From a virus: DNA of 31,425 nucleotides. The stretch lies in IMG/VR virus record IMGVR_UViG_3300032224_001565, positions 1-31,425 of that record. The stretch is one strand, 5' to 3'. The translations under genes were made by a program, and so were the position numbers. The notes below the pieces were generated by a model. That model was not told the DNA's origin. It ran no database searches and was given only the letters and a program-made list of their open reading frames with translations. This document shows positions 188-30,364 of this stretch, one piece after another (position 1 is the first letter of the stretch; every line of letters begins with the position of its first letter).

Positions 188-2170
188 ATGGCAGACATTA
201 TACAAAAGTCTTTTAATAGTTCCCGTAGAGAAATTAAGTATCTCAATAGAGACTTTTCTTCTTTCAAAGCATCTTTGATTGAATATTCAAAGACATATTT
301 TCCAAGAACATATAAAGATTTTAGTGAAGCATCTCCTGGTATGATGTTTATTGAAATGGCATCTTATATTGGAGACGTTCTTTCATATTATACCGATTAT
401 CAATTTAAAGAAAGTTTAATGCCATATGCGGAAGAAAGAAAGAATGTTTTGGCATTAGCCAACTATCTTGGATATAAAACAAAACCTACTAAATCTGCTA
501 CCACAAATATTGATTTATATCAATTAATTCCTTCCACTAAAGATTCTGATAATAACTATATTCCTGATAATAACTATGCTCTTAAAATAAGAGAATATAT
601 GGAAGTATCTAATGAAAGTGGAGTAAGTTTTATTACAACTGATCCTGTGGATTTTTCTCTTGATAGTAAGTTTTCTCCCAGAGAAGTTACGGTATATTCC
701 AGAGATGATTATGGTATACCACAATTTTTCTTATTAAAGAAGTCAACAAAAGTGATTGCTGGTAAAATCACTACAACATCATTTACAATAGGTTCATCAG
801 TTCCATTTTATAAAATATCATTATCAGAAAATAATGTAATTGATATAATAGATGTAAAAGATAGTGACAACAATAAGTGGTATGAGGTTGATTATTTAGC
901 ACAAGATTTAGTATTTACCGAAACAGAAAATACGGATTTTACTAATAATACTTATGTTCAATATTCCTCTGATGTTCCAAAGTTAATTAAAAGTTTTAAA
1001 ACATCAAGAAAATTTGTAGTAAATGTTACTGCAAATAACACAACATATCTTGAATTTGGTGCTGGTACAGATGCAACTTCTGATGAAGTGATATATCCAA
1101 ATTCTGAATTGGTTGGTGTGGGATTGAGAAATATCAGTAATTTAAATTTAAATTATGATACAAGTAAATTATTAAATTCTGAAACATTTGGGCAGTCTCC
1201 ATCAAATACCGTATTAACAGTACAATATTTAATTGGTGGTGGTTTAACATCAAATTCTCCATCAGATACTATCAAAAATATATCTTCGGTTACATATTTG
1301 AATGATACTAGCGGATTAACACCTTCTCAAAATTCATTGTTAACTACAGTTAAAAATTCATTGAGAATATCCAATCCAAATCCTGCCGTTGGTGGACAAA
1401 ATGAAGAAAGTGTAGAAGAAATAAGACAAAATGCTTTGGCTAACTTTGGTTCTCAAAATAGAACAGTAACCGTTGATGATTATGTTTCTAGAATATATTC
1501 AATACCACCAAGATTTGGTTCCATTGCAAAAGTAATGGTGATTCCAAATTCAAACTTATCAATTTCTACAAATCAAACATTATTAAATGGTTTTGTAAAT
1601 AATGAAAATCAAACAACATTGATTAATAACGGTTTAGAAAATAACTTTAGAAAAGTAAATTTTGATGTTTCCAATCCATTTAGTTTGAATTTATATGTTT
1701 TGAGTTACAATTCAAATAAAAATTTGACTCAATCTAATGAAGCATTAGTGTACAACATCAGACAATATTTACAAAAATACAAAATTATATCGGATAGTGT
1801 TAATATTATTGATGGTTACATCATTAACATTGGAATAGATTTTAAGATTTTGGTTTATAACAATTTTAATAAAAAAGAAGTTTTAGACCAATGTATTCAA
1901 AAATCCAAAGATTTTTTTAATGTTGACAAATGGTATTTTAATCAACCAATCAATATCAATCAATTGGAATTAGAATTGGCTAAAGTTGAAGGTGTACAAT
2001 CCGTCGCAGAAATAAAATTTAAGAATCTTACTCAAAATGACGGAGATTATTCTCCACACGAATACAATTTATCCGAAGCAACTCATAATAAGATTATATA
2101 CCCATCATTAGATCCTTCGGTATTTGAAGTTAAATATCCAGATAATGATATTAGAGGTGCTGTAATTTAA
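188..2170 (+). CDS. Baseplate wedge subunit, gp6-like (baseplate J family)
   Basis: This 660-residue protein has the same length as T4 gp6, which forms the inner ring of the baseplate and joins neighbouring wedges. The N-terminal part (residues about 25-110) has the signature EYSKTYFPRTYKDF, then SPGMMFIEMASYIGDVLSYY and a following YAEERKNVLALANYLGY. These are hallmark positions of gp6 homologues. The central baseplate-J part (about 395-450) has NPAVGGQNEESVEEIRQNAL, then QNRTVTVDDYVSR and the PPRFGSIAKVMV stretch. The C-terminus ends with a small alpha/beta domain containing INQLELELAKVEGVQSV. It follows the gp25-like gene with a 2-base gap and has no visible Shine-Dalgarno, so it may be translationally coupled. 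No internal defects are seen. Confidence 0.93.
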   Translation: MADIIQKSFNSSRREIKYLNRDFSSFKASLIEYSKTYFPRTYKDFSEASPGMMFIEMASYIGDVLSYYTDYQFKESLMPYAEERKNVLALANYLGYKTKPTKSATTNIDLYQLIPSTKDSDNNYIPDNNYALKIREYMEVSNESGVSFITTDPVDFSLDSKFSPREVTVYSRDDYGIPQFFLLKKSTKVIAGKITTTSFTIGSSVPFYKISLSENNVIDIIDVKDSDNNKWYEVDYLAQDLVFTETENTDFTNNTYVQYSSDVPKLIKSFKTSRKFVVNVTANNTTYLEFGAGTDATSDEVIYPNSELVGVGLRNISNLNLNYDTSKLLNSETFGQSPSNTVLTVQYLIGGGLTSNSPSDTIKNISSVTYLNDTSGLTPSQNSLLTTVKNSLRISNPNPAVGGQNEESVEEIRQNALANFGSQNRTVTVDDYVSRIYSIPPRFGSIAKVMVIPNSNLSISTNQTLLNGFVNNENQTTLINNGLENNFRKVNFDVSNPFSLNLYVLSYNSNKNLTQSNEALVYNIRQYLQKYKIISDSVNIIDGYIINIGIDFKILVYNNFNKKEVLDQCIQKSKDFFNVDKWYFNQPININQLELELAKVEGVQSVAEIKFKNLTQNDGDYSPHEYNLSEATHNKIIYPSLDPSVFEVKYPDNDIRGAVI

Positions 2171-3854: not shown

Positions 3855-4303
3855 GTATAAAATCACAAATCAATGACTTTTTATTAACAGGCCAATTCAC
3901 TAATAATATTGATGAATTTGGTAATGTAAATTTGTATATTAATTCAAGTGACGCAAATGAACAATATATTGCATTTGAATTGATAAATTTTAATTATAAA
4001 AAAGATGAAATTGAAAATTTATACGATGTAGGTATTACAGAAATACAAACAGAACCCGTAATTCAAAAACAAGTATTTGATCAAACATTTTTAACTGAAT
4101 ACAATAAAGTATTGTATGAAAACCAAGATTTGAAAGAAAAGTTGAATCAATTGGTTGATGAAATACAATCTGATTCATCCAAGTCACAATTAAGTGCGGC
4201 AAGAGATTTAATCGTAGAATTAAGAATTAAATTAAAACAAGGAAGTAAACCCGAGGATTTTTCCAGTGAATTTCCATTTAATTTGAAATCTGAAAATCAA
4301 TAA
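3851..4303 (+). CDS. Hypothetical virion-cluster protein with C-terminal coiled coil
   Basis: This is a 150-residue protein of unknown function. The N-terminal half is mixed alpha/beta (NVNLYINSSDANEQYIAFEL). Residues about 85-135 look like a coiled coil, with heptad-compatible LTEYNKVLYENQDLKEKLNQ and LSAARDLIVELRIKLKQG. The start overlaps the stop of the preceding beta-sandwich gene (ATGA), and the next large tail gene begins 3 bases after the stop, so it is translated within the baseplate operon. No catalytic motif, signal peptide or membrane segment is seen. It may be an assembly factor or a minor structural protein. This is inferred from position only. Confidence 0.75.
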   Translation: MSIKSQINDFLLTGQFTNNIDEFGNVNLYINSSDANEQYIAFELINFNYKKDEIENLYDVGITEIQTEPVIQKQVFDQTFLTEYNKVLYENQDLKEKLNQLVDEIQSDSSKSQLSAARDLIVELRIKLKQGSKPEDFSSEFPFNLKSENQ

Positions 4304-4306
4304 TTT

Positions 4307-7300
4307 ATGGCATTTCCATTTCCAACAATATCATCTAACAGTGGATCATTAAATAGTGGTTCTTACTTTTTACAAAATGATTTGGATACATTTGTTGATG
4401 TACCATTTCAAGAATATTATTTTGGAAATTCGGAACAAGATATTATTGAATTTAGTGTATATGATATTGAAGGTAATATCAATATATGGAAATATTTGCC
4501 GGTGTCAACAACATATAGTGTATTAAATAAAACATATAAAGATGTTGATAACAACACTTTAAATTACAGTTACAAACAGTACAACAGTAGTTATACGATT
4601 GCATTTAATAAAAATATATTATTAAGTACACTTCAAGATTTTTCCGGTTCAAATATTAATTCTGGCAATCACGTTGCAAGTTATAATTTTATTAGAAATG
4701 TTGCTGGTAATCCTGATTATCAACTTTATATTAAAGAAATTTCTCCAAGTAGAAGAGAAATTAAATTAACCCCATCATTTAAATTAGATTTAACAAAAGA
4801 AGAAAACATACTTGTAAATCTTCAATATCAAGCATTTGCTAGAAAAGCAGTATTGGTCAGAGATACAATTCCATTGTTCAATTACTTTTTGGATTCATAT
4901 CAAATCTATAAAAATAGTGATACTTTAATTAACAATAATAAAGCAATTTTTACACTATTAAGAACCAATTTTGGATTCAAATCAGATGCAGATATACTTG
5001 CATTTTTAGATGACACATACAATGGTTTTAATCGTCCTTTCATTAATTCTCAAAATGGACAATTGATTCAAAATAGTTTTGAAGGTGCTAAAAATTATAT
5101 TAAAGATTGGTTGTATACATATTATAAGTCAATTTATTCATTTGAACAGATTAAGACTCAATTTAAGTATATAGTTCAAAAGTCTATATCAATTAGATTG
5201 AATCAGCTCAATTCATATTATACAAGTAATATTGAATTGACAAATCAAGTTGAGAATTTCATTACTGATTTATTTTTTACAAATTTCATTTTAAATGTTG
5301 TTGATACTGTTCAAACGTATCACAATAATAAATTGTATGCATATTTGAAAAATGCATTAAATTTTGGTAATGATATATTTTACACTATATTAAATTATAC
5401 ATTTGTAGAAGAAAATGGTAATACAAATATTATTGTAAAATTGTTTAATGAATTGCCATTGGATGTTTCATTAAGAGATAAGTGTTGGATATCAAACATT
5501 TCACTTGTACCTACAATTCAAAAGTTTGTAATTAATGTTCCGACAATTAAGAAAAATTTTAAAATATCCGGTCCAAATTTCAAAGTACCAACTGATTCTT
5601 ATAAGAGTTCTCCTGTAAATTATCAAAATTCAAATGATTTAAAATTGGATAATACTACGAAAAATGACGTAGAATTTTATAAGAAATTAAATAATCTTAA
5701 TGTTGATTACTCCGATTTTTCTAATTTCATTGTATTTGGTTCTGCTGAATTGAGAACCAAGTTATTTTTAAATAAGGTTACGTCAATCAATCAACTCAAT
5801 AAGTCAATTAATTCTATATTGACTACATTATCCGCATCTGCAGCAAATAGTGCGTCATCTTATACATTATTAACATCATATCCATTCATTAGCGCATCAT
5901 ATGCAGAAGAAGTAAATGGATATCAATCACAATTAAATACAATTTTCAATTCATTTGACGGATATGATTCCTATTTGTATCAAAATATCACTTTAGTAAG
6001 TGGTAGTACAACATCATTTGTCAGTGGTGCATATGTACAAAATTACAATTATCCAGACTACATTGAAAATGCAATTGAATTTGATAAAAATAACAGAGAT
6101 AGTCTTGTAAATAATACACCAGAGTACATTTTATTGGATGATAACAATACTGATTATTTGATATTCTTGTCAATGATTGGACATCATTTTGATAACATTT
6201 ACTTGTATATTAAGAATTTTCCAACTCAACAATATGTTGAAAATAATCTATCCTCAAGTTATGTAAGTACAATTGCTAATAATTTATTAAAACAATTTGG
6301 ATGGAATCCAATTAGTTCATTTGATAATTCATCTATTGAATCTAATTACTTGACGGGTTCAAATGCTTATTCTGATTATGATAAATTAAAGATAATTTGG
6401 AATAGAATTCTAAAGACTCTTCCATTGATTTACAAGACTAAGGGAACGGAAGAATGTATTAGAACAATATCTAACATTTATGGAATTCCTCGTAGTTTAT
6501 TAAATGTTAAAGAATATGGCGGTAATAAGATTTCTGATGAAGATAATTCATCTTACACATATCAAAGTAAATATTACTTTACAAAATATACCAGAAATGG
6601 TGATGCAATAGTAATACCAGTATTTGGTACATCAAGTTATGTCAATTCAATAGAATTTAAATTTAGAATTGATTCTGATTATATTTATCCACAAAATACC
6701 AAAGTTTATTTGTTAAAAACAACTAATTGGGACGTATCAATCAAAAAGGAAGTTAAAGATACTTTTGGAAAATTAAAATTTGATATGTCGGTTCCGAATG
6801 GAAAACCAACTGACTATATTGAAACAGATTCATTGCCATTGTTTAATGGAAATGTATTCAATGTACTAATTAAACAGATTAATTTATCTGCAAGTTATGA
6901 CACAGGATCTGGCGGACAATTACCATATCAATATTCATTAAGAGTAACATCCGTAGATAATGATGAAATTGTATTTGATGATAATAAATCAATCATTAGT
7001 GGAACTGAAGGAATTAATGATGTATTTAATAGTTTTGGTTTACTTTACGTAGGAAATTATACAGGCGGTGGCAATTTATTCCAAGGAAATATTGATAAAA
7101 TAAATCTATGGAAACACGAATTAGATGATGAATCTTTTATAGAACACTGTAAGAATTTTGATTCTTACAAAACAAACAATGACAGTACAACATATGATAA
7201 TTTGTATTTTAGATACAGTTATGATTATCCAGTTAATATGTACACCGGTTCATTTTTTGTTGTAAGAAACGCTAACAAGTTGTATTCGCAATATAGTGCA

Positions 7301-8533
7301 TCTGCATATAATTTTGCACAAAATACAACTACACAATCAAATTGTTTGACTGTATCTGCATCTTTATATCCATATCAATTTGATGAAATTGAAATCAATC
7401 AAAACATTAAATTGGGACAATATGGTCCTAATAAATTTAAGAATGCAAAGATTAATAAAGCAACACAAACAGTTGAAGCTAGATTAATGCCTAATGAAAC
7501 TAGTGTTGTAAACAATTTAGTAACTACCGATTCGAATTTATTAGCTGTATATATTTCACCGTTTAAAGTAAGAGATGATGATATTTTAAATTTCTTGGGT
7601 GAATATGATATGATGGATTTAATTGGTAATCCATCTAATATTTTCTCTGACAATTATGAAAGTTTACAAACATTAAGAGACAATTATAACAAATATAATT
7701 TGTCCGAACAAGTTTTATATCAAGAGTTTATTACTCTTTATAAGAATTATTTTGACGGTTCTTTCTTTGAAACCGTAACACAATTGCTTCCAGCAAGAAG
7801 TAAAGTGATTGATGGTATATTGATTGAACCAAGTTTATTGGAAAGAAATAAATATCAAAACCGCTCTATAGACAGTGCTATTGCTTATGATTTAAATAGT
7901 TCGTATCAACCACTAAGAAACTTTTCTGCTTCTTTTGAAAGAAATTATAGAAGCACAAGTCAAGTTAATTTAAGTAAAAACGGACTAAACTTTCCATTAA
8001 CATCTTCTACATATAGTACATTGACATCAATGCATCCTGCATCATATACATCTAATAACTACACAACATTCCAGTTTTCTAGTTTGAATTATGATAAGAG
8101 ATTAAGTATATTTTCTGTTAGTGGTTCGTTTTTTGATAAATTTGAAAGTAATTATATTTACAGAAACAATAAAAATGTATATTTGTTTGGTACAAATCCA
8201 AATACCAGTTTAGAAAATTCTAGTAGTAAATTTGTAAATACATATTCATATGTAAATGTCAATTCTGCATCTTTATTTACTACATATGACAATAATTCTT
8301 CTGTTTTTGATACCGATTCCTATCCTATAGGACATTATTCATTGAAAAGAAAAATTTCAAGGTTTTCAACTAATCAATATTTCGTTAATTCTGCAACATC
8401 CTCATTTTATAAAAAATCTAGTCAAACTAGATATACAACTGTAGATGATAAGGGAAACACTGATAACTCATCACCAATTGAAAGAACTCAAATAAATCTA
8501 CAAGTTTCTGAAAATTCATTGATTAGTTCATAA
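4307..8533 (+). CDS. Giant tail/baseplate protein with LamG-like domain
   Basis: This 1408-residue protein belongs to the tail module. It contains a conserved tail-protein stretch near residues 698-730 (LKTLPLIYKTKGTEECIRTI, then NIYGIPRSLLNVKEYGG). The KGT and YGIP elements recall tail proteins that connect baseplate to fibres (P2 gpI-like or gp7-position proteins). From about 770 to 960 there is a concanavalin/LamG-like sandwich: SIEFKFRIDSDYI, GLLYVGNYTGGGNLFQGNID and KINLWKHELDDESFIEHC. Near residue 1145 a third segment reads FETVTQLLPARSKVIDGILI, followed by EPSLLERNKY. The C-terminus is Ser/Asn/Tyr rich. It lies 3 bases after the coiled-coil gene. The LamG-like part suggests carbohydrate binding. 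The exact tail position is inferred, not shown. The size and the adhesion fold fit a wedge-to-fibre connector. Confidence 0.72.
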   Translation: MAFPFPTISSNSGSLNSGSYFLQNDLDTFVDVPFQEYYFGNSEQDIIEFSVYDIEGNINIWKYLPVSTTYSVLNKTYKDVDNNTLNYSYKQYNSSYTIAFNKNILLSTLQDFSGSNINSGNHVASYNFIRNVAGNPDYQLYIKEISPSRREIKLTPSFKLDLTKEENILVNLQYQAFARKAVLVRDTIPLFNYFLDSYQIYKNSDTLINNNKAIFTLLRTNFGFKSDADILAFLDDTYNGFNRPFINSQNGQLIQNSFEGAKNYIKDWLYTYYKSIYSFEQIKTQFKYIVQKSISIRLNQLNSYYTSNIELTNQVENFITDLFFTNFILNVVDTVQTYHNNKLYAYLKNALNFGNDIFYTILNYTFVEENGNTNIIVKLFNELPLDVSLRDKCWISNISLVPTIQKFVINVPTIKKNFKISGPNFKVPTDSYKSSPVNYQNSNDLKLDNTTKNDVEFYKKLNNLNVDYSDFSNFIVFGSAELRTKLFLNKVTSINQLNKSINSILTTLSASAANSASSYTLLTSYPFISASYAEEVNGYQSQLNTIFNSFDGYDSYLYQNITLVSGSTTSFVSGAYVQNYNYPDYIENAIEFDKNNRDSLVNNTPEYILLDDNNTDYLIFLSMIGHHFDNIYLYIKNFPTQQYVENNLSSSYVSTIANNLLKQFGWNPISSFDNSSIESNYLTGSNAYSDYDKLKIIWNRILKTLPLIYKTKGTEECIRTISNIYGIPRSLLNVKEYGGNKISDEDNSSYTYQSKYYFTKYTRNGDAIVIPVFGTSSYVNSIEFKFRIDSDYIYPQNTKVYLLKTTNWDVSIKKEVKDTFGKLKFDMSVPNGKPTDYIETDSLPLFNGNVFNVLIKQINLSASYDTGSGGQLPYQYSLRVTSVDNDEIVFDDNKSIISGTEGINDVFNSFGLLYVGNYTGGGNLFQGNIDKINLWKHELDDESFIEHCKNFDSYKTNNDSTTYDNLYFRYSYDYPVNMYTGSFFVVRNANKLYSQYSASAYNFAQNTTTQSNCLTVSASLYPYQFDEIEINQNIKLGQYGPNKFKNAKINKATQTVEARLMPNETSVVNNLVTTDSNLLAVYISPFKVRDDDILNFLGEYDMMDLIGNPSNIFSDNYESLQTLRDNYNKYNLSEQVLYQEFITLYKNYFDGSFFETVTQLLPARSKVIDGILIEPSLLERNKYQNRSIDSAIAYDLNSSYQPLRNFSASFERNYRSTSQVNLSKNGLNFPLTSSTYSTLTSMHPASYTSNNYTTFQFSSLNYDKRLSIFSVSGSFFDKFESNYIYRNNKNVYLFGTNPNTSLENSSSKFVNTYSYVNVNSASLFTTYDNNSSVFDTDSYPIGHYSLKRKISRFSTNQYFVNSATSSFYKKSSQTRYTTVDDKGNTDNSSPIERTQINLQVSENSLISS

Positions 8534-8579
8534 AAAAGATTTAATGAATAATATTTATTGATAAATATACTTATATTAT
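8534..8579 (+). promoter_or_regulatory. AT-rich leader, possible promoter
   Basis: This 46-bp gap is entirely A/T rich and contains TATTTATT, GATAAATA and ATACTTATATTATATG leading into the next ATG. ATACTTATATT is also found in the gap before position 2226. GATAAATA resembles the late promoter box of T4-like and cyanophage genomes. No Shine-Dalgarno sequence and no terminator hairpin are visible. Confidence 0.3.
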
Positions 8580-9209
8580 ATGGCATATCTAGATAACAAA
8601 ACTATAACAGTTGATGCGATTTTAACCCAAAAAGGTAGACAATTGTTAGCAAAGAACGGTTCTTTGAATATTACATCATTTGCTCTTGCGGATGATGAAA
8701 TTGACTATAACTTATACAATTCAACACATCCACTAGGCAGTGCTTTTTATGATATTTCTATAAGAAATACACCAATATTGGAACCATTTAGTGATGAAAC
8801 ACAAGTAATGAAATATAAGTTGGTTACATTACCATCCGGCGTTACCGCAATTCCAGTAATTTCTATCGCACAAACAAGTATTATAACCAATAGATTGAAT
8901 ACAAGTGAATTTATAATTTCTCCAAGTACCAATCCAACATATAATACAACACTGGGATATACTGCTATATTGGGTAATAAGAATGCTGGAACATTATTGG
9001 TTACTGAAACAAATAGTATTAATTCTACAAGTGCTACGGTTCCAAGTTTTGCAGGTGATGCCGTTACTGCTGCTTCTCAAGTGGTAGTTGGTAATAAATT
9101 TAAATTTGTACCAAATAACGCTTTGATATCTACCATAACTACAACATTGACTATCATTGGAAATGAAAGCGGTGGTAGTTTAACAATTCCAGTTACCGTA
9201 ACAGTTTAA
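8580..9209 (+). CDS. Conserved virion structural protein (T4-like tail cluster)
   Basis: This is a 209-residue protein. Its N-terminus (MAYLDNKTITVDAILTQKGR, LLAKNG, ITSFALADDEIDYNLYN) matches from memory a family common in structural clusters of marine and freshwater T4-like myoviruses, where it is annotated only as a virion structural protein. The middle has the conserved NTPILEPFSDETQVMKYKLV stretch. The last 40 residues (LTIIGNESGGSLTIPVTVTV) look like a single Ig-like beta domain. The next gene starts 14 bases downstream. There is no enzymatic motif. Membership of the tail cluster is clear from context, but the molecular role is unknown. Confidence 0.7.
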   Translation: MAYLDNKTITVDAILTQKGRQLLAKNGSLNITSFALADDEIDYNLYNSTHPLGSAFYDISIRNTPILEPFSDETQVMKYKLVTLPSGVTAIPVISIAQTSIITNRLNTSEFIISPSTNPTYNTTLGYTAILGNKNAGTLLVTETNSINSTSATVPSFAGDAVTAASQVVVGNKFKFVPNNALISTITTTLTIIGNESGGSLTIPVTVTV

Positions 9210-9223
9210 CCGCTTAATAAAAT

Positions 9224-10330
9224 ATGATTTTTAAAAACTTTGAATCTACAGACATCGTAGCCGGAAGAATCAATAAGGTTTCTTCTGGATTTTGGGTTGA
9301 CGGCAATTATGCTGTAACACAATCATCTTTTACAACATCATCTACTCAAGTGGTATTGACTGGTTCAAACCAATATGATGTTCAAAATGGGTTGTATTAT
9401 TACAATGTATATTACCAAAATCAACCACACTTTTCAATAACATACGGTGATTATTATGGGTCAGGATCATCCATAACAGATTCAACATCATTATATATTC
9501 GTCCTACTCAAACAATTTATAATCAATACAAGAATATATTATTGACTCCAGATGATGCGTTTTTTAACTTTAAATCTGGTAATTATACAGTAGCTACGTC
9601 TACCGATTCTACTACATCTGTTACTTCATCTGGTATAGTAGTGTTGAATTTCTCAGCAGATAAATATAAAGATCGTGTAGATGAAGGACAAATCGAATTT
9701 AGTATTAGTGGTGCTAAAGGACAATTTACATTTATTGATGATTCTTCCGTAGTTAAGAAACAATTAGATGTTTATAATATTATCAGTGGTAGTGTAAATG
9801 ATGGTGTACCATCTGCATATTCAAGTGGAGGAGTAATCACATATAATTCAATTGGATTGTTTTATCCAAAAACAGGTACAATTGTATTAAATGCAAGTGC
9901 AATTAGTTCATCAGTTGGTGTATCATTGACTGGATCATTCGCAAATGTTCCTGATCAAACCAATACATACGCATTGAATCAAAGAACTATGTTCCAAGCA
10001 ATTACTAAATGTACAACAAAAACATTTAAAGTAAGAAAATCTGAATATTTACCATCCGCTCAATATTTCGTAAGAGTCAAGAATCAAGACTTTAATTATA
10101 CAAACAACCCAACATTCATTGCAAATGGCACTACTGATAGTTTTAATGGTACAGTATTAACAAGAGGTTCTATTAAAATTAGTGATTTTGTAAATAATCC
10201 TACAACATATATTACTACAGTTGGTTTGTATGATAGTGATAATGAACTTGTAGCTGTTGCTAAATTGAGTCAACCAACACAAAAAACTTTTGACAGTGAA
10301 TTGTTGGTGCGTGTCCGCCTAGATTTTTGA
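9224..10330 (+). CDS. Conserved virion structural protein with TVGLY C-terminal module
   Basis: This is a 368-residue structural protein. The segments FSITYGDYYGSGSS, IYNQYKNILLTPDDAFFNF and KYKDRVDEGQIEFSISG follow the pattern of a virion protein shared by cyanophage-like T4 relatives. The last 80 residues form a module (FNYTNNPT at 290, YITTVGLY at 329, LVAVAKLSQP, ending LLVRVRLDF). This module recurs, interrupted, at the end of the propeller protein at 12043-14358, so both may dock to the same partner through it. The reading frame is intact although a homing endonuclease gene has entered 50 bp downstream. No Shine-Dalgarno is visible. Its function beyond being structural is unknown. Confidence 0.72.
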   Translation: MIFKNFESTDIVAGRINKVSSGFWVDGNYAVTQSSFTTSSTQVVLTGSNQYDVQNGLYYYNVYYQNQPHFSITYGDYYGSGSSITDSTSLYIRPTQTIYNQYKNILLTPDDAFFNFKSGNYTVATSTDSTTSVTSSGIVVLNFSADKYKDRVDEGQIEFSISGAKGQFTFIDDSSVVKKQLDVYNIISGSVNDGVPSAYSSGGVITYNSIGLFYPKTGTIVLNASAISSSVGVSLTGSFANVPDQTNTYALNQRTMFQAITKCTTKTFKVRKSEYLPSAQYFVRVKNQDFNYTNNPTFIANGTTDSFNGTVLTRGSIKISDFVNNPTTYITTVGLYDSDNELVAVAKLSQPTQKTFDSELLVRVRLDF

Positions 10331-10380: not shown

Positions 10381-11421
10381 ATGTATATGTCAAAGTATTT
10401 TAATTGTAAATATTGTAATAAGTCTTTTTATCACCGAATTTTTAAAAATCACATAGAAAAAACACACAACGAGTTATATAATGATTATATAAAAAATAAT
10501 ATTACCGATTTTTCAGAAACAGATTATAAAATTTGTGTGGAATGCAAAGATATTCACCGTGGTAGATCTGATAAATGTGGACGGTGTTTTACAAAATCCC
10601 ACGATATAAAAGAAAATAAAAATATAGAATGTAAATTGTGTAATAAACAAATATACACAAAACTAATTTCTTTACATTTAAAAAAAGAACATAATATAAA
10701 ATTAAAAGAATATATAAAAATAAATTTAGATGATTTTAAATTATTTGGTTGGTGTAAGTGTTGTATGTGTGAAAATGTTACAAAAAAACAAGGAAACAAA
10801 CATGAACCTACATGTTCTATTAACTGTTTAAGTAAATTAAGAAAAAAAATATATAGTGGTCGTGTTGGTGTCCGACACACAGACGAAACAAGAAAAAGAC
10901 TTTCAAATAGTCAAATACTACGATTACAAAATCCTCTAAATTGTCCTTTTTATGGAAAAATACATTCTTTAAATTCAAAAAATAAAATTTCTAAAACAAG
11001 AATTGTTCGTGGAGTTGCAAAAGGTGAAAAGAATCCGATGTATGGAAAGACCCATACACCAGAAGCAATAGAAAAAATTTTTTCCCATCGAAAAATGAAT
11101 AAATTAGAAAAAATAGTTGCTAATTTATTAGATAGAGAAAAAATTCCATATAAATTTCAATTTTTTATAAATAAAAACGGGATATGTAAATCATATGATT
11201 TTAAACTATTAAACAATAATATAATACTAGAAATAGATGGAGATTTTTGGCATGGAAATCCAAATACAAAAAATCACTATATAAAATCAAATGAAATAAA
11301 TATAAATGATACATTAAAAGAAAAAATTGCTACGGAAAATGGATATAAAATTTTAAGATTTTGGGAATCTGATATAAAAAACAATCCGGAAATTATATTA
11401 AAGGATATACTTATTAAGTAA
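10381..11421 (+). CDS. Free-standing homing endonuclease (zinc fingers, NUMOD3, Vsr-like nuclease)
   Basis: This 346-residue protein is likely a site-specific DNase that spreads its own gene. The N-terminal half has cysteine/histidine fingers: CKYC (10-13) with H24 and H29, CVEC...CGRC (52-69), CKLC (84-87) with H99 and H104, and CKCCMC...C (125-149). The middle shows NUMOD3-type DNA-binding repeats: VRHTDETRKRLSNSQ (164-178), FYGKIHSLNSKNKISKTR (190-207) and NPMYGKTHTPEAIEKI (218-233). The C-terminal 100 residues resemble the Vsr-like/EDxHD nuclease fold: D273, then LEIDGDFWHGNP (283-294) and YKILRFWESDI (322-332). It sits between two structural genes, both intact. Its stop is 1 base before the next start. 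It looks more AT-rich and lysine-rich than its neighbours, as expected for a mobile gene. M1 or M3 could be the start. Confidence 0.85.
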   Translation: MYMSKYFNCKYCNKSFYHRIFKNHIEKTHNELYNDYIKNNITDFSETDYKICVECKDIHRGRSDKCGRCFTKSHDIKENKNIECKLCNKQIYTKLISLHLKKEHNIKLKEYIKINLDDFKLFGWCKCCMCENVTKKQGNKHEPTCSINCLSKLRKKIYSGRVGVRHTDETRKRLSNSQILRLQNPLNCPFYGKIHSLNSKNKISKTRIVRGVAKGEKNPMYGKTHTPEAIEKIFSHRKMNKLEKIVANLLDREKIPYKFQFFINKNGICKSYDFKLLNNNIILEIDGDFWHGNPNTKNHYIKSNEININDTLKEKIATENGYKILRFWESDIKNNPEIILKDILIK

Positions 11422-11422
11422 G

Positions 11423-12046
11423 ATGATTAAAAGTCTAAACAGAGATGATGTTCAAGTTACACCATTTGTTGCTAAAAAACTCTGGAATCCTACAAATATT
11501 GAAGCTACGGATTTGATATTATGGATGTCTGGATCATTAAGTGGATCAATATCTCATATTTATATTGATTATGGTGACGGTACAAGTTTACCTACAACAA
11601 ATAGTTATTGTGATTTAGCGTTACAACAACAAAGCAATGATTTTGTTCAATATCATCGTGGTTTAAACATTACAGGCACATTTTTTCCAGTTGGTAATCA
11701 ATACTACAATTCGGCATCTAATCCAACTAATACTGATGGTACTTATATGCGATTAGTGTATAATACCAATAAACAATTATTCTATAACACATATAATAAT
11801 CCAACTCAATTATGGGGTGTAGAAAATTTCAATTTAGATACTACATATAGACTCCTGACAGATGTAATGGATGTATTCACAATTCCAACAATTAATTTTG
11901 GAGAAAAAATTTCCCCATATAGTGTAACAATAATTGACGATCAAGATGATGCCAATTATATAATAGTAGATGACGGAAATGAAAATTTAATACTTAGTGG
12001 AAGTTATTTTTCTACTTATCAAGAAATAGAATTCACTGATATATGA
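11423..12046 (+). CDS. Virion-cluster protein of unknown function
   Basis: This is a 207-residue protein beginning MIKSLNRDDVQVTPFVAKKL, which looks like a natural N-terminus (compact, no truncation). It has short motifs such as HIYIDYGDGT and MRLVYNTNKQLFYNTYNNPT and no enzyme signature. It starts 1 base after the homing endonuclease stop, so its original leader was probably displaced or is now supplied by the endonuclease tail. It overlaps the next gene by 4 bases (ATGA at 12043), which implies coupled expression with the propeller protein and perhaps a shared complex. A structural or assembly role is inferred from position only. Confidence 0.7.
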   Translation: MIKSLNRDDVQVTPFVAKKLWNPTNIEATDLILWMSGSLSGSISHIYIDYGDGTSLPTTNSYCDLALQQQSNDFVQYHRGLNITGTFFPVGNQYYNSASNPTNTDGTYMRLVYNTNKQLFYNTYNNPTQLWGVENFNLDTTYRLLTDVMDVFTIPTINFGEKISPYSVTIIDDQDDANYIIVDDGNENLILSGSYFSTYQEIEFTDI

Positions 12047-14358
12047 CCGATCCAATTTATAAATTAAAAACAGGATATTCAATTGCTGCTGATGGTGATT
12101 ATGTAGCAGTTGGAAATCCTACATCATTTTTATCTGGATCGTTTGTATTAAACAATAAAGGATCAGTTGAATTATTTAAATATTCTAAAACCACGGATTT
12201 ATACAATCCTAATTTTATATTTTATAAATACATAAATCCAAATGATTTTCCAGGATATTTGTCAGCCGACACTAGTAGTGTAGATACCACATATATTAAT
12301 GCGGATACATCATCTGTTCCTGTTTTAGGATTGAACATAGAAATTGATTTAGGAGGATGGAATCCTATTATTTATGATGATTCTTATGGTGTATCTGTAG
12401 ATGTATCAGGATCGGTAGTAGTAATTGGAAATCCATATTATAGATTTTCATTAATTAACGGTTCCACAGTTTATACAGGTTCTTGTGTAGATATCTATGA
12501 TTTATCGGATTATTCAAGTAGTTATGTATCTGGAACAGTTTATTATCCAAAATATAGTATTACAAATTCATTTGATAATCTAGAATATTCTACATTTGGT
12601 GAATCTGTTTCAATTTATCAGAATAAGTTAGTAGTAGGTTCCAGTAAAAATAATTGCGCTTATATATACACACAATCACTAGGCGTTTGGAATCATTATC
12701 AAACATTATCTCCTGCGGGATTGTCATCAAATTATTATTATGGAAGTGTTGTTAAGATTGACCCAAGTGGTTCAAATAGAATAGTAGTTGGTAATAAGTC
12801 AACCGGAAGCGCTGTTTATGTATATGAATTAAATACAACTACAAATCAATGGGTAGAGAATGATATATTGAATCAAGACAGAAATATTACTGGTTCATTA
12901 AATTTTATTAATACTAAACCATATTTTCCTGGCAGTCAACCAAGTGGTAGTAATTATGGCAATTCAGTATCAATCTATGGAGATACAATCATAGTAGGAT
13001 CTCCAAATGATATGTATTATTATGAATGGAGTGGTTCTACAGTTTTAAGAAATAGAGGAGCAGTTTATTTTTGGAAAAAATGTTCGGATGCAACTGATTG
13101 GTTTTTATTAGAAAAATCATTTGGCAATGAAAATATTTTAGAGTCAAATAATTTAGGATATTCCGTTGACATTTATAACGGTAATGCAATTGTTACTAGT
13201 ACAAAAGATATTAGTCAATTTAGTTCCAGTTATATTAAAAATACAATTAATAAAAGATTTGATTGTAACCCAAATGACAGTATAATTGATACTTTAGGTC
13301 AATTTGTTTATTATACATCATCATTATCTACATCGTTATGGGAAATTAAGTCTGTAATAACTAAAAAGAAACAATATGGTTATCCATATACAACATTTGG
13401 ATATAGTTCTGCAATTACAGATAATATAGTGTCTATTGGTTCTCCATTATTCTTAGTAAATCCATCTGAAATGTCATCATCTGTATATGATACCATCAAT
13501 GGTTATTCATATATTTATAATTTTAATGATATTGTTACCGATTATCACATTGGAAATGTATTTTATAGAGACGGTAAGATTATTTTGTCAAATAGTGGTT
13601 CTATTTTTGATAATTTATTAAAAAATCGTTCTAATCCATTACAATCTAAGTATGACATTGAATATAAGAGCAATGTTAAACTATATGAAAAACAAGTATT
13701 ATGTAGGATTGAATCTGGTGAATTTAACTATAGTACAAATCCTACATCATTAGTTCCAAATACATTTGATTTTGATATTGACGGTAATAAATATTTTGAT
13801 TTTACCGACCTAGATTTGATTTTAAAGTATATTAACTATCAAATCAATAATTCATATAATTGGTGGGATTATATGACATTCACTAGTGAAGAACAATCAT
13901 TGTTTAATCTATATTCTGTAACCTACAACATTTCATCCAGTTATACAACCAATTATACGTCGTTATTGTCATCAAACTATTATAATTTTGATGTTGATGG
14001 TAATAACAAAGTTAATTTGAATGATATGTACATACTTTGGAAATATTTCAATGATAATTTGAATCAAACAGAATTATTTAAGTATGTAGAGCCAAAGTCT
14101 AGTAGAAAAACCGTACAACAAATAGTAAGTTATATTGAACAAAAGACTGGTAAATTTGGGGGTAAGACTATAAAACGAGATTTCTTTGAATTTAATTATA
14201 GTTCATCAATTGACCCAACTGGTTCTTATTTAGCACCATATATAACAACTGTAGGACTTTATAGTGGTGCAGATTTGGTTGCAGTTGCTAAATTAGGTAT
14301 GCCAATTAAAAATAGTGGCGAATTACCATTAAATATTTTGGTAAAATGGGATATTTAA
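12043..14358 (+). CDS. FG-GAP beta-propeller virion protein with dockerin-like calcium loops
   Basis: This is a 771-residue protein. Seven FG-GAP-type repeats start near residues 11, 115, 185, 233, 305, 371 and 452, for example YGNSVSIYGDTIIVGSP and FGESVSIYQNKLVVGSS, often followed by a YIY/AVYFW strand. Seven repeats fit a seven-bladed propeller like those of integrin alpha chains. Two dockerin-like loop-helix units follow: DIDGNKYFDFTD (578-589) with LDLILKYI, and DVDGNNKVNLND (650-661) with MYILWKYF. Each has acidic or Asn residues at calcium positions 1, 3, 5, 9 and 12. The C-terminus (YITTVGLY at 733, LVAVAKLGMP, NILVKWDI) matches the end of the protein at 9224-10330. It is probably a tail adhesin or fibre-attachment protein. 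The propeller call is strong, the dockerin call good by pattern, and the ligand unknown. Confidence 0.75.
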   Translation: MTDPIYKLKTGYSIAADGDYVAVGNPTSFLSGSFVLNNKGSVELFKYSKTTDLYNPNFIFYKYINPNDFPGYLSADTSSVDTTYINADTSSVPVLGLNIEIDLGGWNPIIYDDSYGVSVDVSGSVVVIGNPYYRFSLINGSTVYTGSCVDIYDLSDYSSSYVSGTVYYPKYSITNSFDNLEYSTFGESVSIYQNKLVVGSSKNNCAYIYTQSLGVWNHYQTLSPAGLSSNYYYGSVVKIDPSGSNRIVVGNKSTGSAVYVYELNTTTNQWVENDILNQDRNITGSLNFINTKPYFPGSQPSGSNYGNSVSIYGDTIIVGSPNDMYYYEWSGSTVLRNRGAVYFWKKCSDATDWFLLEKSFGNENILESNNLGYSVDIYNGNAIVTSTKDISQFSSSYIKNTINKRFDCNPNDSIIDTLGQFVYYTSSLSTSLWEIKSVITKKKQYGYPYTTFGYSSAITDNIVSIGSPLFLVNPSEMSSSVYDTINGYSYIYNFNDIVTDYHIGNVFYRDGKIILSNSGSIFDNLLKNRSNPLQSKYDIEYKSNVKLYEKQVLCRIESGEFNYSTNPTSLVPNTFDFDIDGNKYFDFTDLDLILKYINYQINNSYNWWDYMTFTSEEQSLFNLYSVTYNISSSYTTNYTSLLSSNYYNFDVDGNNKVNLNDMYILWKYFNDNLNQTELFKYVEPKSSRKTVQQIVSYIEQKTGKFGGKTIKRDFFEFNYSSSIDPTGSYLAPYITTVGLYSGADLVAVAKLGMPIKNSGELPLNILVKWDI

Positions 14359-16797: not shown

Positions 16798-19700
16798 ATG
16801 GCAAAATATCTTAAATCAGATATAAAAGAATTCAAGAATGTATTTCACATTGCGGATATTCATTTGCGTCTTACAAAGAGACACGATGAATACAATCAAG
16901 TATTTGAAAGATTGTATAAAGCAATAGAAAAGACACCTGCGGAAACTGTAGTTACCGTATTAGGAGATGTCTTGCATTCAAAGAGCGATCTTTCACCTGA
17001 ATGTGTAAAGATTACATCTGAATTTTTACAAAATCTAGCAGATAGAAGACCAACGATATTGATTTCAGGTAATCACGATGCTACTTTGGCCAATAAAAAC
17101 AGATTAGATAGTTTGAGTCCAATTGTTGATGCGATTAATCATAAAAATTTATTTTATCTAAAGGATTCTGGACTTTATATCTTGGGAGATATTTTGTTTA
17201 ATCACTATAGTGTATTTGATGAACCGGATAAATATATTAAAGTAAAAGACATTCCAAAGATTTATTTAAATGAAACCCGTTATAAAATTGCTTTATTTCA
17301 CGGTCCAGTAAACAATGCAATTACTGATGTAGGATATAAAGTTGCGAGTAGAACTATTACAAACGAAATCTTTAACGGTCACGATATTGTATTGTTGGGA
17401 GATATTCACAGACATCAAGTTCTAAGTCAATCTGACCCAATAATTGTTTATTGTGGTTCACTGATCCAACAGAATCATGGCGAAGAACTTAAAGGTCACG
17501 GATTTGTATTTTGGGATTTAAAGACCAAAGTATTTAAACACTTTGAAATTCCAAATGATTATGGATTTTATACTGCTGAAATCAATAAAGGTAAGTTGAC
17601 TACTGATATTTCTAATATGCCTAAAAAGGCAAGACTTAGATTAAAGTGTTTTGAAAGTGTTGCAACTGAAGTTAAATCTGTATTATCACATATTCGGGAA
17701 AAATCCGATGTTACGGAAGTAACTTATGTTCGTGTAGATTCACCAAATACATCATCTAACAATATTATTGACAACAACAATTTTAATTTGACTGATGTAT
17801 CTGATGTAGATTATCAAAACAAGTTGATTACCGATTATCTTAATAATAAAAACATAAGTCCTACAAAGGATACGCTTGAAAAAATTTATAAGATAAATAA
17901 AGATTTAAATGCATCTTTAGAAAAAGAATCTATCGTTAGAAATATTAGATGGAAACCTAAGAAGTTTGAATTTGACAATATGTTTAGTTATGGTGAAGAC
18001 AATGTTATTGACTTTACCAAGATGCACAATGTAGTTGGATTATTTGCGAATAATGCGGCTGGTAAATCAAGTGTATTGTCTGCATTATCTTTTTGTATTT
18101 TTGATAAATGTGATAGAGCATTCAAAGCATCTCACATTCTTAATACACAAAAGATGACATTCCGTTGTAAATTTAATTTTGAAGTTAACGGTGTAGATTT
18201 CTTTATTGAAAGAAAAGGACATGCGGATAAAAAGGGAAATGTCAAAGTAGATGTAAAGTTTTGGAAAGAAGAATGTGGTAAAGTTGTAGAACTTAATGGT
18301 GAAGCTCGTAGAAGTACTAATGATATCATTCGTGATTATGTTGGTACATATGATGACTTTATTTTAACTGTCTTGAGCATCCAAAATAATAAAGTTGGTT
18401 CATTTGTAGATATGGGACAAACAGAAAGAAAAGATTTGTTGGCCCAATTTATGGGACTAACTATATTTGATAGTTTGTATAACGATGCATCTGACAAAAC
18501 CAAGGAAATCAATTCATTATTAAAGAATTTCAAGAACAATGATTATACTCAGAAATTGTTGAATTTAAATGCCGACATAGAAAACTTTTCTGGTTCACTT
18601 AGAAATGAAAATTCTAATTTAGAAAAACTATCCAATCAAAGAGACTCTGAAAATGATAGACTGTTAGATGAAACAAAAAAACTAATTAATGTTAACGGTA
18701 ATATTATTGATATTGTTTCAATTGAATCAAAAAAGGTTTCATTAGAAAATTCTATATCAACACAATCGTCTAGTTTAAATTCATATAAATCTCAATTATC
18801 ATCTATCGAATCAATATATAAGGAATATGATGAAATTATAAAGAATTATGATAATGAAAATGTTACAAATAAGTATGATTCGTTCAAAGAATTGGAAACA
18901 TCTTTAAGTCAAAAAGAACAGTTTATTGAAAAAAAGAAGATTGTTGTAACATCTAAATTACAAAAACTAAAGAAATTGGAAGAACATAAGTATGACCCAA
19001 ATTGTACTTTTTGTACAACCAATGTATTCGTTAAAGATGCAATTAAAACAAGAGAAGAACTTGAATCAGACAAAGTTGAAGCTCAAAGTCTTGTTGGAGA
19101 ATATACTAATCTTAAAAATAAAGTTGGAGAATTGTCTTATATAAAAGATGATTGGAAAAAATATAATGATATTCATAAGTTATATGTTGAAACACAGATT
19201 AAAATTAACAAATTAAATACTGAAATTCTAAAAATATCAAATAATATTAGTTCCAATCAAAATTCATTAATTAATATTGAAAGTCAAATCAAAGAATATT
19301 ATAATAATAAAGATGCAATTGAATTTAACAAAACTGTTAAAGATATAATTGATTCAATTAAATCTAATATTAAAACAATTGACTTGGAAATTAAGAATGT
19401 AAATAATAACATTATTAATTATAATACTAAGATTTCTGGGTTTGAAGAACAACGTAAAACTATTCAAAAGTCAATTGAAGATGTAAAAGTACTTGAAGTT
19501 GAGTATGAAGCATATCAATTGTATACAAATGCAATATCTAGAGATGGTATTCCATATGAATTGATTAGTCAGGCTTTACCAACTATTGAAAAGGAAGTAA
19601 ATAACATATTAAACCAAATAGTAGAATTTACGGTAATCTTACAGACGGATGGTAAAAATGTAACTACACATATTAATTACGAAGATAAACGCTGGCCATT

Positions 19701-19983
19701 AGAATTGGCTAGTGGTATGGAACGATTTGTGAGTTCATTGGCTATGAGAGTAGCGTTAATTAACATTAGTAATCTACCAAGACCCAACTTTATAGCTATA
19801 GATGAAGGATTTGGATGTGCTGATGCTGATAATTTATCATCTATGGGTGCTTTATTTGCGTTCTTAAAGACCAATTTTGATTTCGTATGGATTATCAGTC
19901 ATTTGGATAGTATGAGGGATATGGTTGACAATAGACTTGAAATTAAGAAAGAAAACGGATTTTCTAAAGTTAATTATGTATAA
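16798..19983 (+). CDS. Fused Mre11-like nuclease and Rad50-like ATPase (gp47-gp46 type)
   Basis: This is a single 1061-residue chain. The N-terminal 270 residues are a complete metallophosphatase: D20-x-H22 (HIADIHL), G56-D57-VLH60, GNHD (91-94), H168 in ALFHGP and D202-IH-R-H206. After a linker (about 310-390) the Rad50/SMC part begins: Walker A-like ANNAAGKSS (417-425), helical arms (about 580-920) and a zinc-hook CTFC (C736, C739). It ends with the signature region LASGMERFVSSLAMRVAL, Walker B FIAIDEGFG, D-loop CADADN and switch His in IISHLDSM. In T4 these are two proteins, gp47 (339 aa) and gp46 (560 aa), which resect DNA ends. The frame is continuous through the join with no stop. Unusual points are the fusion and the Ala substitutions in the P-loop. 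It follows the primase by 1 base. Confidence 0.93.
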   Translation: MAKYLKSDIKEFKNVFHIADIHLRLTKRHDEYNQVFERLYKAIEKTPAETVVTVLGDVLHSKSDLSPECVKITSEFLQNLADRRPTILISGNHDATLANKNRLDSLSPIVDAINHKNLFYLKDSGLYILGDILFNHYSVFDEPDKYIKVKDIPKIYLNETRYKIALFHGPVNNAITDVGYKVASRTITNEIFNGHDIVLLGDIHRHQVLSQSDPIIVYCGSLIQQNHGEELKGHGFVFWDLKTKVFKHFEIPNDYGFYTAEINKGKLTTDISNMPKKARLRLKCFESVATEVKSVLSHIREKSDVTEVTYVRVDSPNTSSNNIIDNNNFNLTDVSDVDYQNKLITDYLNNKNISPTKDTLEKIYKINKDLNASLEKESIVRNIRWKPKKFEFDNMFSYGEDNVIDFTKMHNVVGLFANNAAGKSSVLSALSFCIFDKCDRAFKASHILNTQKMTFRCKFNFEVNGVDFFIERKGHADKKGNVKVDVKFWKEECGKVVELNGEARRSTNDIIRDYVGTYDDFILTVLSIQNNKVGSFVDMGQTERKDLLAQFMGLTIFDSLYNDASDKTKEINSLLKNFKNNDYTQKLLNLNADIENFSGSLRNENSNLEKLSNQRDSENDRLLDETKKLINVNGNIIDIVSIESKKVSLENSISTQSSSLNSYKSQLSSIESIYKEYDEIIKNYDNENVTNKYDSFKELETSLSQKEQFIEKKKIVVTSKLQKLKKLEEHKYDPNCTFCTTNVFVKDAIKTREELESDKVEAQSLVGEYTNLKNKVGELSYIKDDWKKYNDIHKLYVETQIKINKLNTEILKISNNISSNQNSLINIESQIKEYYNNKDAIEFNKTVKDIIDSIKSNIKTIDLEIKNVNNNIINYNTKISGFEEQRKTIQKSIEDVKVLEVEYEAYQLYTNAISRDGIPYELISQALPTIEKEVNNILNQIVEFTVILQTDGKNVTTHINYEDKRWPLELASGMERFVSSLAMRVALINISNLPRPNFIAIDEGFGCADADNLSSMGALFAFLKTNFDFVWIISHLDSMRDMVDNRLEIKKENGFSKVNYV

Positions 19984-20011: not shown

Positions 20012-23000
20012 ATGCCCAGCATAAAGACAGGTCAAATTTTAGGTTTATCAAGTCAAAGTGTTAATATAGAAGATAAGACATACTTATCTGAGTATTTTAA
20101 CCTCACAGAGTTTTCTCCGGAATTCTCTGTGGGGAAAAATTCATTAGTAATTAATGGAAGTGATAAACTTAAAATTGGTGCTGAAATACTTACTGAAGCA
20201 TTTGATAGTAACGGCGTTTCTCTTTTTATAGAAAAAGCTATAAGTACCGATCAATTGACAAAAAAAAGAATTATTGTATTGTCAATTTATGTTTATGAAC
20301 AAAATTCGGTTGGTTCTGGAAAACTAATATTAGTTTCTACAACAACAGACAATAAAACTGTAAGATGGTCTGCTAATATAAATATAGATGTCAATAAAGT
20401 TACCGATTCAAAGATTAGATTTTATAATCAACCGTTGATTGAAGTAGAACCTATATTATCGTATGTAGTATCATCATCTGTAGAAAACAATCCAAAAACT
20501 ATTACTGGTAATTTTTTATCAAATCCTGTAAAACCTAAAGTAGATTTTGATATACAAAAATTTGGATATAGAAAAAACTTAGTAGATTATAGAATAACAG
20601 ATGTCACTGCGAATTTTAGTTCTAGTTTAAAGAATTTTCAAGTACAATTATACATAAATAAAATTAAAGAATATGCTAGTTTAAATGAAATTAGCATCAA
20701 TACTACTGCATCATTTTTAATTAAAGATGTATTAAATACTACCACATTAATTTTAGATACACCATTTACTTACAATAATAAAGTAGCTACAATTACAAAT
20801 GGAAATTATAAAATTGTTTATAACGATGTAACATATAATCCAAATTTATTTTTATCGTCAAGTTATTTACAAGAATCGTTGGGATTAAGTGGTGCAAAAC
20901 AATATAAGAAAATTTCTTATGCGAAGATAATTTATAAAAATATAAATACTTTTACTGGTAAACCAGTTAAACATAAAGTTTATAGAAAAAGTTTACGAAC
21001 ACTTGGAGATTTTGAATCGGTAATTGATGAAACATTTGGTGATACTGAAATATTAAAAGATCCAGTTACACCAAACAAAGCATATGAAAGATTAGGCACA
21101 TTTTTTAGTCAATTTCATATAAATAACTTTTGGTTTACAAGTTCAAATGATATAAATCTTAAATATGATAACGAAACATTTATTGACGGTTTAAAAATTT
21201 CCGGTAGTAATTTAAACGGTACATATGCAATTGTAAAATCAAATACATCATTTACAAACCGAAATCCATCTTATTTACCATATAATGAAAATGAACAATT
21301 AGCTCAATCAGGATCTAGTTTTGATAGCAATTTTTTAACTTTTTATAAAAATACCGATTATACTCTTTCGTTTAGAACATCTATAGTTGAAAAAATTCCA
21401 TCAACAACAACAAAATTAAAATTTTATATTACTAGTTCAATACCAAGTGTAAATAAAAATATAGGATATGATTCAAACCGAGGTGTATTAATTGCGGAAT
21501 TTGCTTATAGTGGAAGTACAGTTGGTAAATATTTTGATCAAAAACAAAATTTTGATTTTAAATTTCCAGAAGATCTTTATGGTACATTAGTAATTTATCC
21601 TGAAAATGTCAATCAAATAATTGTATCCGATATATCAATAAAAGTATCTGAACTATATGGATTTACAGGAAATTCATATTATGTAAAAGTTCCGTTTCCA
21701 GTAAATGTAGCGAATGAAGTTTTTGAAATAAAATCTGAATTATATGATGTCAATTCAAATCTTTCATATACCAATTTAAGAACCGTTCAAGTTTTTGATC
21801 CATCTGGAAGCAGTTCACCACCGGATTTTGGAAGTACAACTATAATTAATGCAGGAACAGTAAATACTAATATATTGAATGTAACAAGTAGTATTAGATG
21901 GGAAAATCCTTGTGGTGAAGGACTTGCAGCGAGTGCATTTAAATATTTTTTGATATGGAATGATAGTACTAAACAAATTTGTGTAATGACATCCAGTGCG
22001 GTTGCTTCTGGAAGTATAATATCTGGAAGTGGAGGTGGTAATATTACTTCTATAATTGGTGGTCCTGGAGTAACTATAATTAGTGGTTCTGGTCCGATTG
22101 TAACTATTAGTGCAAGTGCAGGCGGAACAGGAAGTGGATTTCCATTTACAGGAAGTGCAATAATTACAGGATCTTTAATTGTTACAGGATCAATATCAAC
22201 ATATAATATTACATCAAGCAATTTAGTATCTGTAAATAATATATTAACTTATATCACCGCTAGTAATATAAGTGCTTCAAACATTACCAGCAGTTTGTAT
22301 GGTACAAGCAGTTGGGCTACTAATGTTGTAAGCAGTAGTTATGCGTTGACTGCTTCATATGCATTAAATGGTGGAAGTGGGGGAACAACACTAATAACTG
22401 GCAGTACATATCCAATTACAAGCAGTTGGGCGAATAATGTAATTAGTGCTAGTTATAGTTTAAGTAGTAGTTATAGTGTTTATGCATTGACATCATCTTA
22501 TACAATATTATCTGAAACAGCGAGTTATTTGTTGCCACAAAATAGTTATTTTATTACTAATTTAAGCGCATCAGGCAGATTATCATCATCAAATGTTAAT
22601 GTCGGTACACCAAATTCATCATATCCGTGGGGTAATTCTATGACAGGATCTTATTTTTCTACTTGGACTTCTGACACTAATGTTTCTGATGCTTTAAGAT
22701 TTTTTGCGGGAGCATTTAGTGCAAGTTATCCTATTCCTTCCCCAAATACAAAAACTTTAAGTGGCATTTCAACAATCAATACCAATACAGGTTCTACAAT
22801 CACAATCAATGGTAGAGTACCAAGTGGTTCGACCGACCAATATATAAATTATTTAAAACCTCTTGGATGGGCAACAATCGGACAAACAATTTTTAGTGGA
22901 TATACATTTAGAAATGCTGCAAATTATGCATTGTATGGAAGTACGGTTGTTGGATCAACTACAATTAGTTCTAGTTTAGGAACAAATGCATTTGGGCAGG

Positions 23001-30100: not shown

Positions 30101-30364
30101 AGTAAGTTCTTGGTATTCGAACAAAATGTGGCTGCTACAAGAAACCGTTTCTTGAGTATCGTAAATCCATATTTGGAATCTGTACAACAACGTAGTGGAT
30201 TGTATGCTTTCCAAGTTGTAATGGATGATACAAATAATACTCCTGACTTGGTTGATAGAAATATCCTATACGGTCAAATCTATCTACAACCAACTAAGAC
30301 TGCTGAATTCATAGTGCTTGATTTCAATATCTTGCCTACAGGAGCAGTTTTCCCTGGCGCTTAA
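27116..30364 (+). CDS. Tail sheath protein, gp18-like, enlarged
   Basis: This 1082-residue protein is much longer than T4 gp18 (659). The N-terminal sheath core has VSPGVFTRENDLSGVAQGVA, EIGAVVLAPFPKGPGF and GPYTAKEYLNEKGFVTVCRV. The conserved C-terminal core (about 1000-1082) has RNRFLSIVNPYLESVQQRSG, LYAFQVVMDDTNNTPDLVDR and a final beta segment, the part that interlocks sheath subunits around the tube. Between them lie extra Ser/Gly/Thr-rich domains (notably about 110-340, with a GCGTQVYLKG stretch), which would project outward. The conserved ends use more C-ending codons (AAC, ATC, TTC) than the insertion and most neighbours. It has its own leader with a strong ribosome binding site and is closed by a rho-independent terminator, so it is a separate, highly expressed unit. 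A tail tube gene is expected downstream but is not in the window. Confidence 0.95.
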   Translation: MPITEGGKFSPVDRIVSPGVFTRENDLSGVAQGVAEIGAVVLAPFPKGPGFAPTLITNAADLEEKFGVADGVYYGPYTAKEYLNEKGFVTVCRVGALTGYRQINPFVIWAQPGTWARSGSAGALNSGSSYVLYDSANISSTFTYVSGSGPDNGTLSFISGTTFTAKFNSVAGDASDLNVNSTSGSLYNSGKTYSFTIGSVSFATSHVTSSYQGNGSYTNNDKLLQAIAESTSTTSNFSASLANSVTITNSDRNLVGTNITLVSGSIFALRSSTGCGTQVYLKGVISGSFGKITGAFSASWSAPVDPCNPTAVTNKPRVLAVLANTQYGTLDSSFNAPGFSGSVLNQKLATSGTYTGSVDPTSLSNFQLILAQNASLIGYYDFSLNPADSNYITNVFGNDATVGNQDDQVSGAKIEAAYLYKTFENSIQKVNDELNSGSPGWKVYGAYLPSSSFATGEVLKFTDQYSTNLNAGDSQYGLTSAATPWILSQGIAPWSGNANPGSVTKYQLFKAHTLSDGTNTNKQYKIEISNIKLSGTVAGSDWGSFTLAVRSYSDTDKKPKYLEIFQNLSLDPNSSNFVARRIGDRYNFITYAGKIIEFGTYTNLSKYIRIEMNTVPYPVASVPYGNEAYVTPLGGTIGNYVPVVQYSKASIYGLAPGKYASGTVMSDIPLGADSELTALYPTSSANAGVKIDTEQYFAPLPFGATVGYNVAFDLESTSSNVGTGSLLAASLSGSIPSTYDATNESTYVKMRKFVVGFQGGFDGQSPSIPINVGSDIIAGNTQGLNCTNINSAGSIAYKQCVGALGNADEFDINLIVTPGIFHEQHSYVTDLVTDMCEARGDTFYIMDNVVFPASNQTVGLIDAAVNDVSTIDSSYVATYYPWVKILDTNLNKIVSVPPSVVMPAVYAANDNAAAEWFAPAGLNRGGIAQAVQVLDRTTHGERDTLYEGRVNPIAAFPGQGICVWGQKTLQVQSSALDRVNVRRLLIALKKFIASSSKFLVFEQNVAATRNRFLSIVNPYLESVQQRSGLYAFQVVMDDTNNTPDLVDRNILYGQIYLQPTKTAEFIVLDFNILPTGAVFPGA

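Follow-up and report, generated by a model that had tools for sequence, protein, structure and literature searches.

An FG-GAP propeller and a dockerin-like calcium-loop pair in a probable baseplate-anchored protein of an uncultured large phage

Type I dockerins (PF00404; e.g. PDB 2y3n, 4fl4, 2vn5) are built of two F-hand units, in each of which a D-x-[DN]-x-[DN]-x3-[DN]-x2-D loop is followed by a hydrophobic helix, and integrin-alpha chains, like FG-GAP_2 proteins (PF14312), carry seven FG-GAP units. Both patterns recur in the sequence of the phage protein described here, which has integrin-alpha headpieces as its best structural matches. A C-terminal domain of the same protein is found in the same part of the baseplate gene cluster in Microcystis phage Mel-JY01 (WWT39517.1) and Flavobacterium phage immuto (QQO91845.1). 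Our literature search returned no paper linking FG-GAP with a phage baseplate, or dockerin with a jumbo phage; the passages of PMC5967307 and PMC3558961 that mention dockerin alongside phages are unrelated to the present case.

The gene lies in a 31,425-nucleotide stretch of an uncultured large phage (the window) and occupies positions 12043-14358, with an ATG at 12043, a stop at 14356-14358 and a product of 771 aa. A three-part architecture of propeller, anchor domain and dockerin-like insert is evident from the translated sequence, and is listed here with two other genes of the cluster:

188..2170, + strand: gp6-like baseplate wedge subunit, a tail-cluster marker (PHROG 219, E 1.1e-16)
9224..10330, + strand: gp8-like probable baseplate protein of 368 aa, three genes upstream of 12043-14358, with the same C-terminal module lacking the insert
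12043..13542, + strand: seven-bladed FG-GAP (integrin-alpha-type) beta-propeller, the probable receptor-binding part, residues 1-500 (Pfam, profile and Foldseek)
13543..13755, + strand: first half of the putative anchor domain, residues 501-571, with GEFNYSTNPT at 559-568 (own-profile matches)
13756..14187, + strand: inserted dockerin-like pair, residues 572-715 (Dockerin_1 and solved-dockerin profile matches)
13774..13809, + strand: predicted calcium loop 1, DIDGNKYFDFTD, residues 578-589, exit helix 590-602, ligand positions 1, 3, 5, 9 and 12 conserved
13990..14025, + strand: predicted calcium loop 2, DVDGNNKVNLND, residues 650-661, exit helix 662-674, ligands conserved
14188..14355, + strand: second half of the putative anchor domain (..YITTVGLYSGADLVAVAKLGMPIK..), residues 716-771 (tail-profile matches)

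The protein is 89-93% identical to its close relatives, and most changes are synonymous. Since synonymous changes outnumber amino-acid changes in all of its regions in comparisons with five close relatives, it is apparently under purifying selection. Searching the PDB with the single 771-aa sequence gave no match.

The seven FG-GAP-type repeats that an earlier note had placed in a propeller within the first ~470 residues hold up well. Pfam FG-GAP_2 matches the protein in four stretches at E 5.5e-16 (58.9 bits against a cut-off of 23), and seven units of the form G-x-[SV]-hydrophobic...hydrophobic-G are readable at residues 11, 116, 186, 234, 306, 372 and 453; our own seven-repeat pattern caught 3 of the 7, the remaining four being assigned by reading. 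In the PDB, a profile of 15 sequences (A2) matched integrin alpha-M with an E-value of 0.0075. Structure prediction with AlphaFold2 gave a model with a mean pLDDT of 48, in which residues 180-280 stand mostly in blocks at 79-92, and Foldseek with this model returned integrin-alpha headpieces and propellers as its top matches (E 2.8e-9). Because Pfam, the profile match to integrin alpha-M and the structural matches to integrin alpha agree, we regard the propeller as well supported, with repeats above cut-off and a propeller fold. In two related records (L017 5983-8238 and L019 near 4300), the propeller gene starts late (MNDYC.. and MSNYC..), without the first strands of blade 1, and the sequence upstream is unrelated.

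Downstream of the propeller, residues of about 501-571 and 716-771 read as one conserved C-terminal domain, a frame around the loops that the earlier note had overlooked. A profile of the first half (residues 500-570) matched proteins in L029, L030 and L031 (6e-8, 9e-8 and 2e-8), in which the second half follows almost directly, and a profile of the tail (residues 715-771) matched the gp8-like protein of the window (1e-6), L029 (5e-15), and also L030 and L031. The two halves stand adjacent in single proteins of three phages, of 357 aa in immuto, 591 aa in Mel-JY01 and 306 aa in an uncultured 484-kb phage; many further contigs have a stand-alone protein of 116-126 aa made up of the second half and part of the first. 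The dockerin-like segment is missing at the same place from the L029, L030 and L031 proteins and from these stand-alone anchor proteins, so that the pair reads as an insertion of ~145 aa into a widespread C-terminal module, with ..FNYSTNPT before it and YITTVGLY.. after it. The final part of this module also terminates the gp8-like protein of the window, without the insert, as well as several consecutive Mel-JY01 genes, and its position and repetition suggest that it is probably a baseplate anchor. The anchor-domain profile matched nothing in the PDB or PHROGs. Among 50,697 phage records the insert found no convincing match (the matches obtained were to the anchor halves), and a dockerin-type insert in an anchor beside an integrin-like propeller occurs in no isolated phage searched here.

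Within the insert, both loops sit exactly where the dockerin calcium pattern had been read, at 578-589 and 650-661. Shuffling the 771-aa protein yields an expected 0.00055 strict-pattern matches per shuffle against the two observed, and none of 20,000 shuffles contained two. The proposed Pfam search, which recovered FG-GAP_2 readily, left Dockerin_1 below its cut-off of 22.9 bits in the window protein (17.2 bits for the whole protein and 22.0 for the isolated region, with 649-672 the best stretch) and placed it above the cut-off in full-length relatives (26.6 bits in L097 and 27.1 in L023/L026). Aligning the window with 16 relatives that are 32-52% identical to it in the dockerin region (A4, 17 sequences), we found Dockerin_1 matches at E up to 1 in all 17 (best E 3.5e-7), and the A4 profile matched the solved dockerins 2y3n (5e-4), 4fl4 (6e-4), 1daq and 2mte (0.011), as well as a sarcoplasmic EF-hand protein (E 3.2e-6). 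Positions 1 and 12 are invariant Asp in both loops, and ligands 1, 3, 5, 9 and 12 are kept throughout except for a His at position 3 of loop 1 in L097 and a Tyr at position 9 of loop 2 in L085. Mean entropy is 0.74 bits over the 10 ligand columns and 1.75 over the rest of the insert (permutation p 1.2e-4), with Asp/Asn fractions of 0.65-1.0 and 0.14, respectively.

The predicted structure has helices after the loops (587-602 and 659-672), in a C-terminal half with pLDDT <50, so the fold of the pair is tentative; the structural check bore out the propeller. Moreover, against a spacing of about 32 residues in the Dockerin_1 model, the loops start 72 residues apart in the window and 98 in L088, and the pair may therefore pack unlike a dockerin. 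We therefore classify residues 572-715 as dockerin-like, short of a proven dockerin. A single dockerin-like F-hand (DVNNDGKSDGTDQYLLKRR; DINNDGKVDKTDKYLKNRR) also occurs in another protein class, in L124 (1186-1836, - strand) and in L133 (near 1500), and the L124 gene adjoins genes resembling prohead protease and core genes.

The placement of the gene in a phage tail cluster, also claimed earlier, is supported by the gp6-like wedge, which is 42% identical over its whole length to that of Mel-JY01, and by synteny with Mel-JY01 (gp6-like wedge upstream, primase/SbcCD downstream) and immuto (wedge and neighbours). The model of the gp8-like protein (mean pLDDT 59) weakly resembles the C-terminal region of T4 gp6 (Z 3.3-3.7). 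Several other features of the window deserve mention in their own right. A NUMOD3/HNH-type homing endonuclease gene (10381-11421) lies between the gp8-like gene and a 207-aa gene; the space between the same two flanking genes in L007 has room for the 207-aa gene alone, and hence the endonuclease is absent there. One ORF (16798-19983) joins an SbcD-like phosphoesterase and an SbcC-like ATPase (PHROG 100, 77), which are usually two subunits. An ORF of 1530 aa (20012-24604) has no Pfam or PHROG match and adjoins a 287-aa ORF with weak tail-fibre similarity. The tail sheath (27116-30364, 1082 aa) confines its sheath domains to the last 280 residues, behind an N-terminal extension of ~800 residues without assigned function. 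When genome contigs were searched for a link to a host, they contained no relative of the 771-aa protein; one SbcCD relative lies on a contig of a Chloroflexi MAG, which may be a mis-binned phage.

Across related phages, the gene content at this place is exchanged. Mel-JY01 has a laminin-G-type lectin joined to the anchor, L104 a DUF5122 propeller near a stand-alone anchor gene, L111 and L113 YadA-head proteins near stand-alone anchor genes, and L063 an LRR ORF between propeller and anchor. Such swapping fits an interchangeable adhesin, and the baseplate cluster, the shared C-terminal module and the swappable adhesive domains would together place the product among tail or baseplate adhesins. 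The L063 locus (4022-8891) consists of the propeller gene, an overlapping 637-aa LRR ORF and then the anchor-dockerin gene, the LRR having been inserted, as a domain or a gene, where propeller and anchor meet.

In L082, L084, L085 and L087, the FG-GAP propeller has a gene of its own next to that of the anchor-dockerin protein, the two overlapping by ATGA in L085. An in-frame TAA lies between propeller and anchor in L082; we considered recoding there and dropped the idea, L084 and L085 being true gene splits. The calcium loops are kept in L082, L084 and L085 even though the propeller is a separate gene, which suggests contact between the propeller and the anchor-dockerin protein. The propeller gene of the split phages ends just short of the last strand motif (SGSAYIYDL in L082); this motif is found instead at the start of the anchor protein, and strand completion may thus also join the two. 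An FG-GAP propeller is present in all complete dockerin-bearing loci; FG-GAP_2 matches nothing in the records of 10 dockerin-less relatives (up to 484 kb), in which the few dockerin matches are all below cut-off and elsewhere than in this gene. In a tree built on the gp8-like protein, the phages with the dockerin insert fall into a single group that also takes in one undetermined row (support 97/96, one change), and since the co-occurrence of insert and propeller is confined to one clade, it is not independent evidence of contact.

Combining these results, the reading that we judge best, and hold with moderate confidence, is an adhesin that is anchored to the baseplate and carries a clip or docking element dependent on calcium. 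We infer a virion location for the product from the gene neighbourhood and shared domains, and likewise infer calcium binding by the loop pair and host binding. The C-terminal domain (501-571 and 716-771) would seat the adhesin on the baseplate or tail tip, with the N-terminal seven-bladed propeller pointing outward to bind the host surface. The inserted F-hand pair would form a calcium-stiffened clip holding either the propeller or a neighbouring subunit of the virion in place against the anchor (this contact surface is the least certain element), and would plausibly make assembly or adsorption calcium-dependent. More speculatively, and in our estimate unlikely, the protein could be a plug-in adhesin, in which a dockerin was taken into a baseplate anchor and dockerin-style calcium docking mounts an integrin-like propeller, sometimes a separate subunit, on the tail tip.

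The role of the pair is where the readings diverge most. It might be a calcium-stabilised structural loop that rigidifies the anchor domain and has no specific partner, a possibility that we consider doubtful yet serious: the loop spacing is odd and variable, general EF-hand models also score on the loops, and no cohesin was found in the records searched. However, the post-loop helices are conserved as well (LILKY / ILWKY), and the insert tracks the propeller even where that is a separate gene, a pattern that makes clipping or docking of the propeller, or of a neighbour, the likeliest role of the pair. The earlier note had suggested that the pair could bind a cohesin-like fold on the host or another virion protein. 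A true dockerin, plugging the adhesin into such a fold in cellulosome fashion, would accord with the relatives above the Dockerin_1 cut-off, with the matches to solved dockerins and with a Cohesin match in the L088 gp8-like protein that stayed below threshold at 13 bits. Yet that match is absent from the other records, the gp8-like family has no Cohesin match, the window itself has none, and no cohesin exceeded the cut-off in the 15 virus records (the window and 14 relatives, possibly fragments), leaving cohesin-type pairing unsupported. Type I dockerins often use a Ser-Thr pair at loop positions 10-11 in cohesin recognition, whereas the window loops have FT and LN there, and terminal cellulosomal dockerins differ from a pair inside another domain. 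We accordingly rate a true dockerin as quite improbable. The pair sits inside a probable anchor domain and accompanies the FG-GAP propeller across phages, which makes a virion partner more probable than a cohesin of the host.

It is also conceivable, if improbable, that the protein is no adhesin at all and that its propeller serves only the internal architecture of the baseplate. The anchor module is common to a probable baseplate protein, and the propeller is fairly well conserved inside the close group. Against this, the corresponding protein of another phage carries a laminin-G lectin, YadA-head, LRR or other propeller proteins stand beside the corresponding gene, and in L017/L018 the N-terminal propeller sequence is more diverged than the C-terminal half. 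The anchored adhesin with a calcium-dependent clip remains our preferred reading, and the initial observation is real, well conserved and was mostly read correctly from sequence alone.

A docking module of the calcium-binding kind, familiar chiefly from cellulosomes, thus appears to be built into a probable phage adhesin, within a domain that elsewhere bears interchangeable adhesins or occurs alongside them. The system lends itself to testing directly whether receptor-binding parts are mounted in a calcium-dependent way, and the anchor module provides a handle for finding adhesins in large uncultured phages, most of whose receptor-binding proteins lack annotation. Compared with type I dockerins, the phage loops lie 72-98 rather than about 32 residues apart, and so do not form a compact pair, and they are inserted within another domain, with no cohesin found. 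Compared with integrin alpha, the protein has no visible integrin leg or I domain and is joined to a phage anchor domain. WWT39517.1 of Mel-JY01 has a laminin-G-type lectin in the propeller's stead, and both it and QQO91845.1 of immuto have the same anchor halves without the dockerin insert. A phage adhesin with a swappable domain is already known, and it is the dockerin-like insertion in its anchor that is new.
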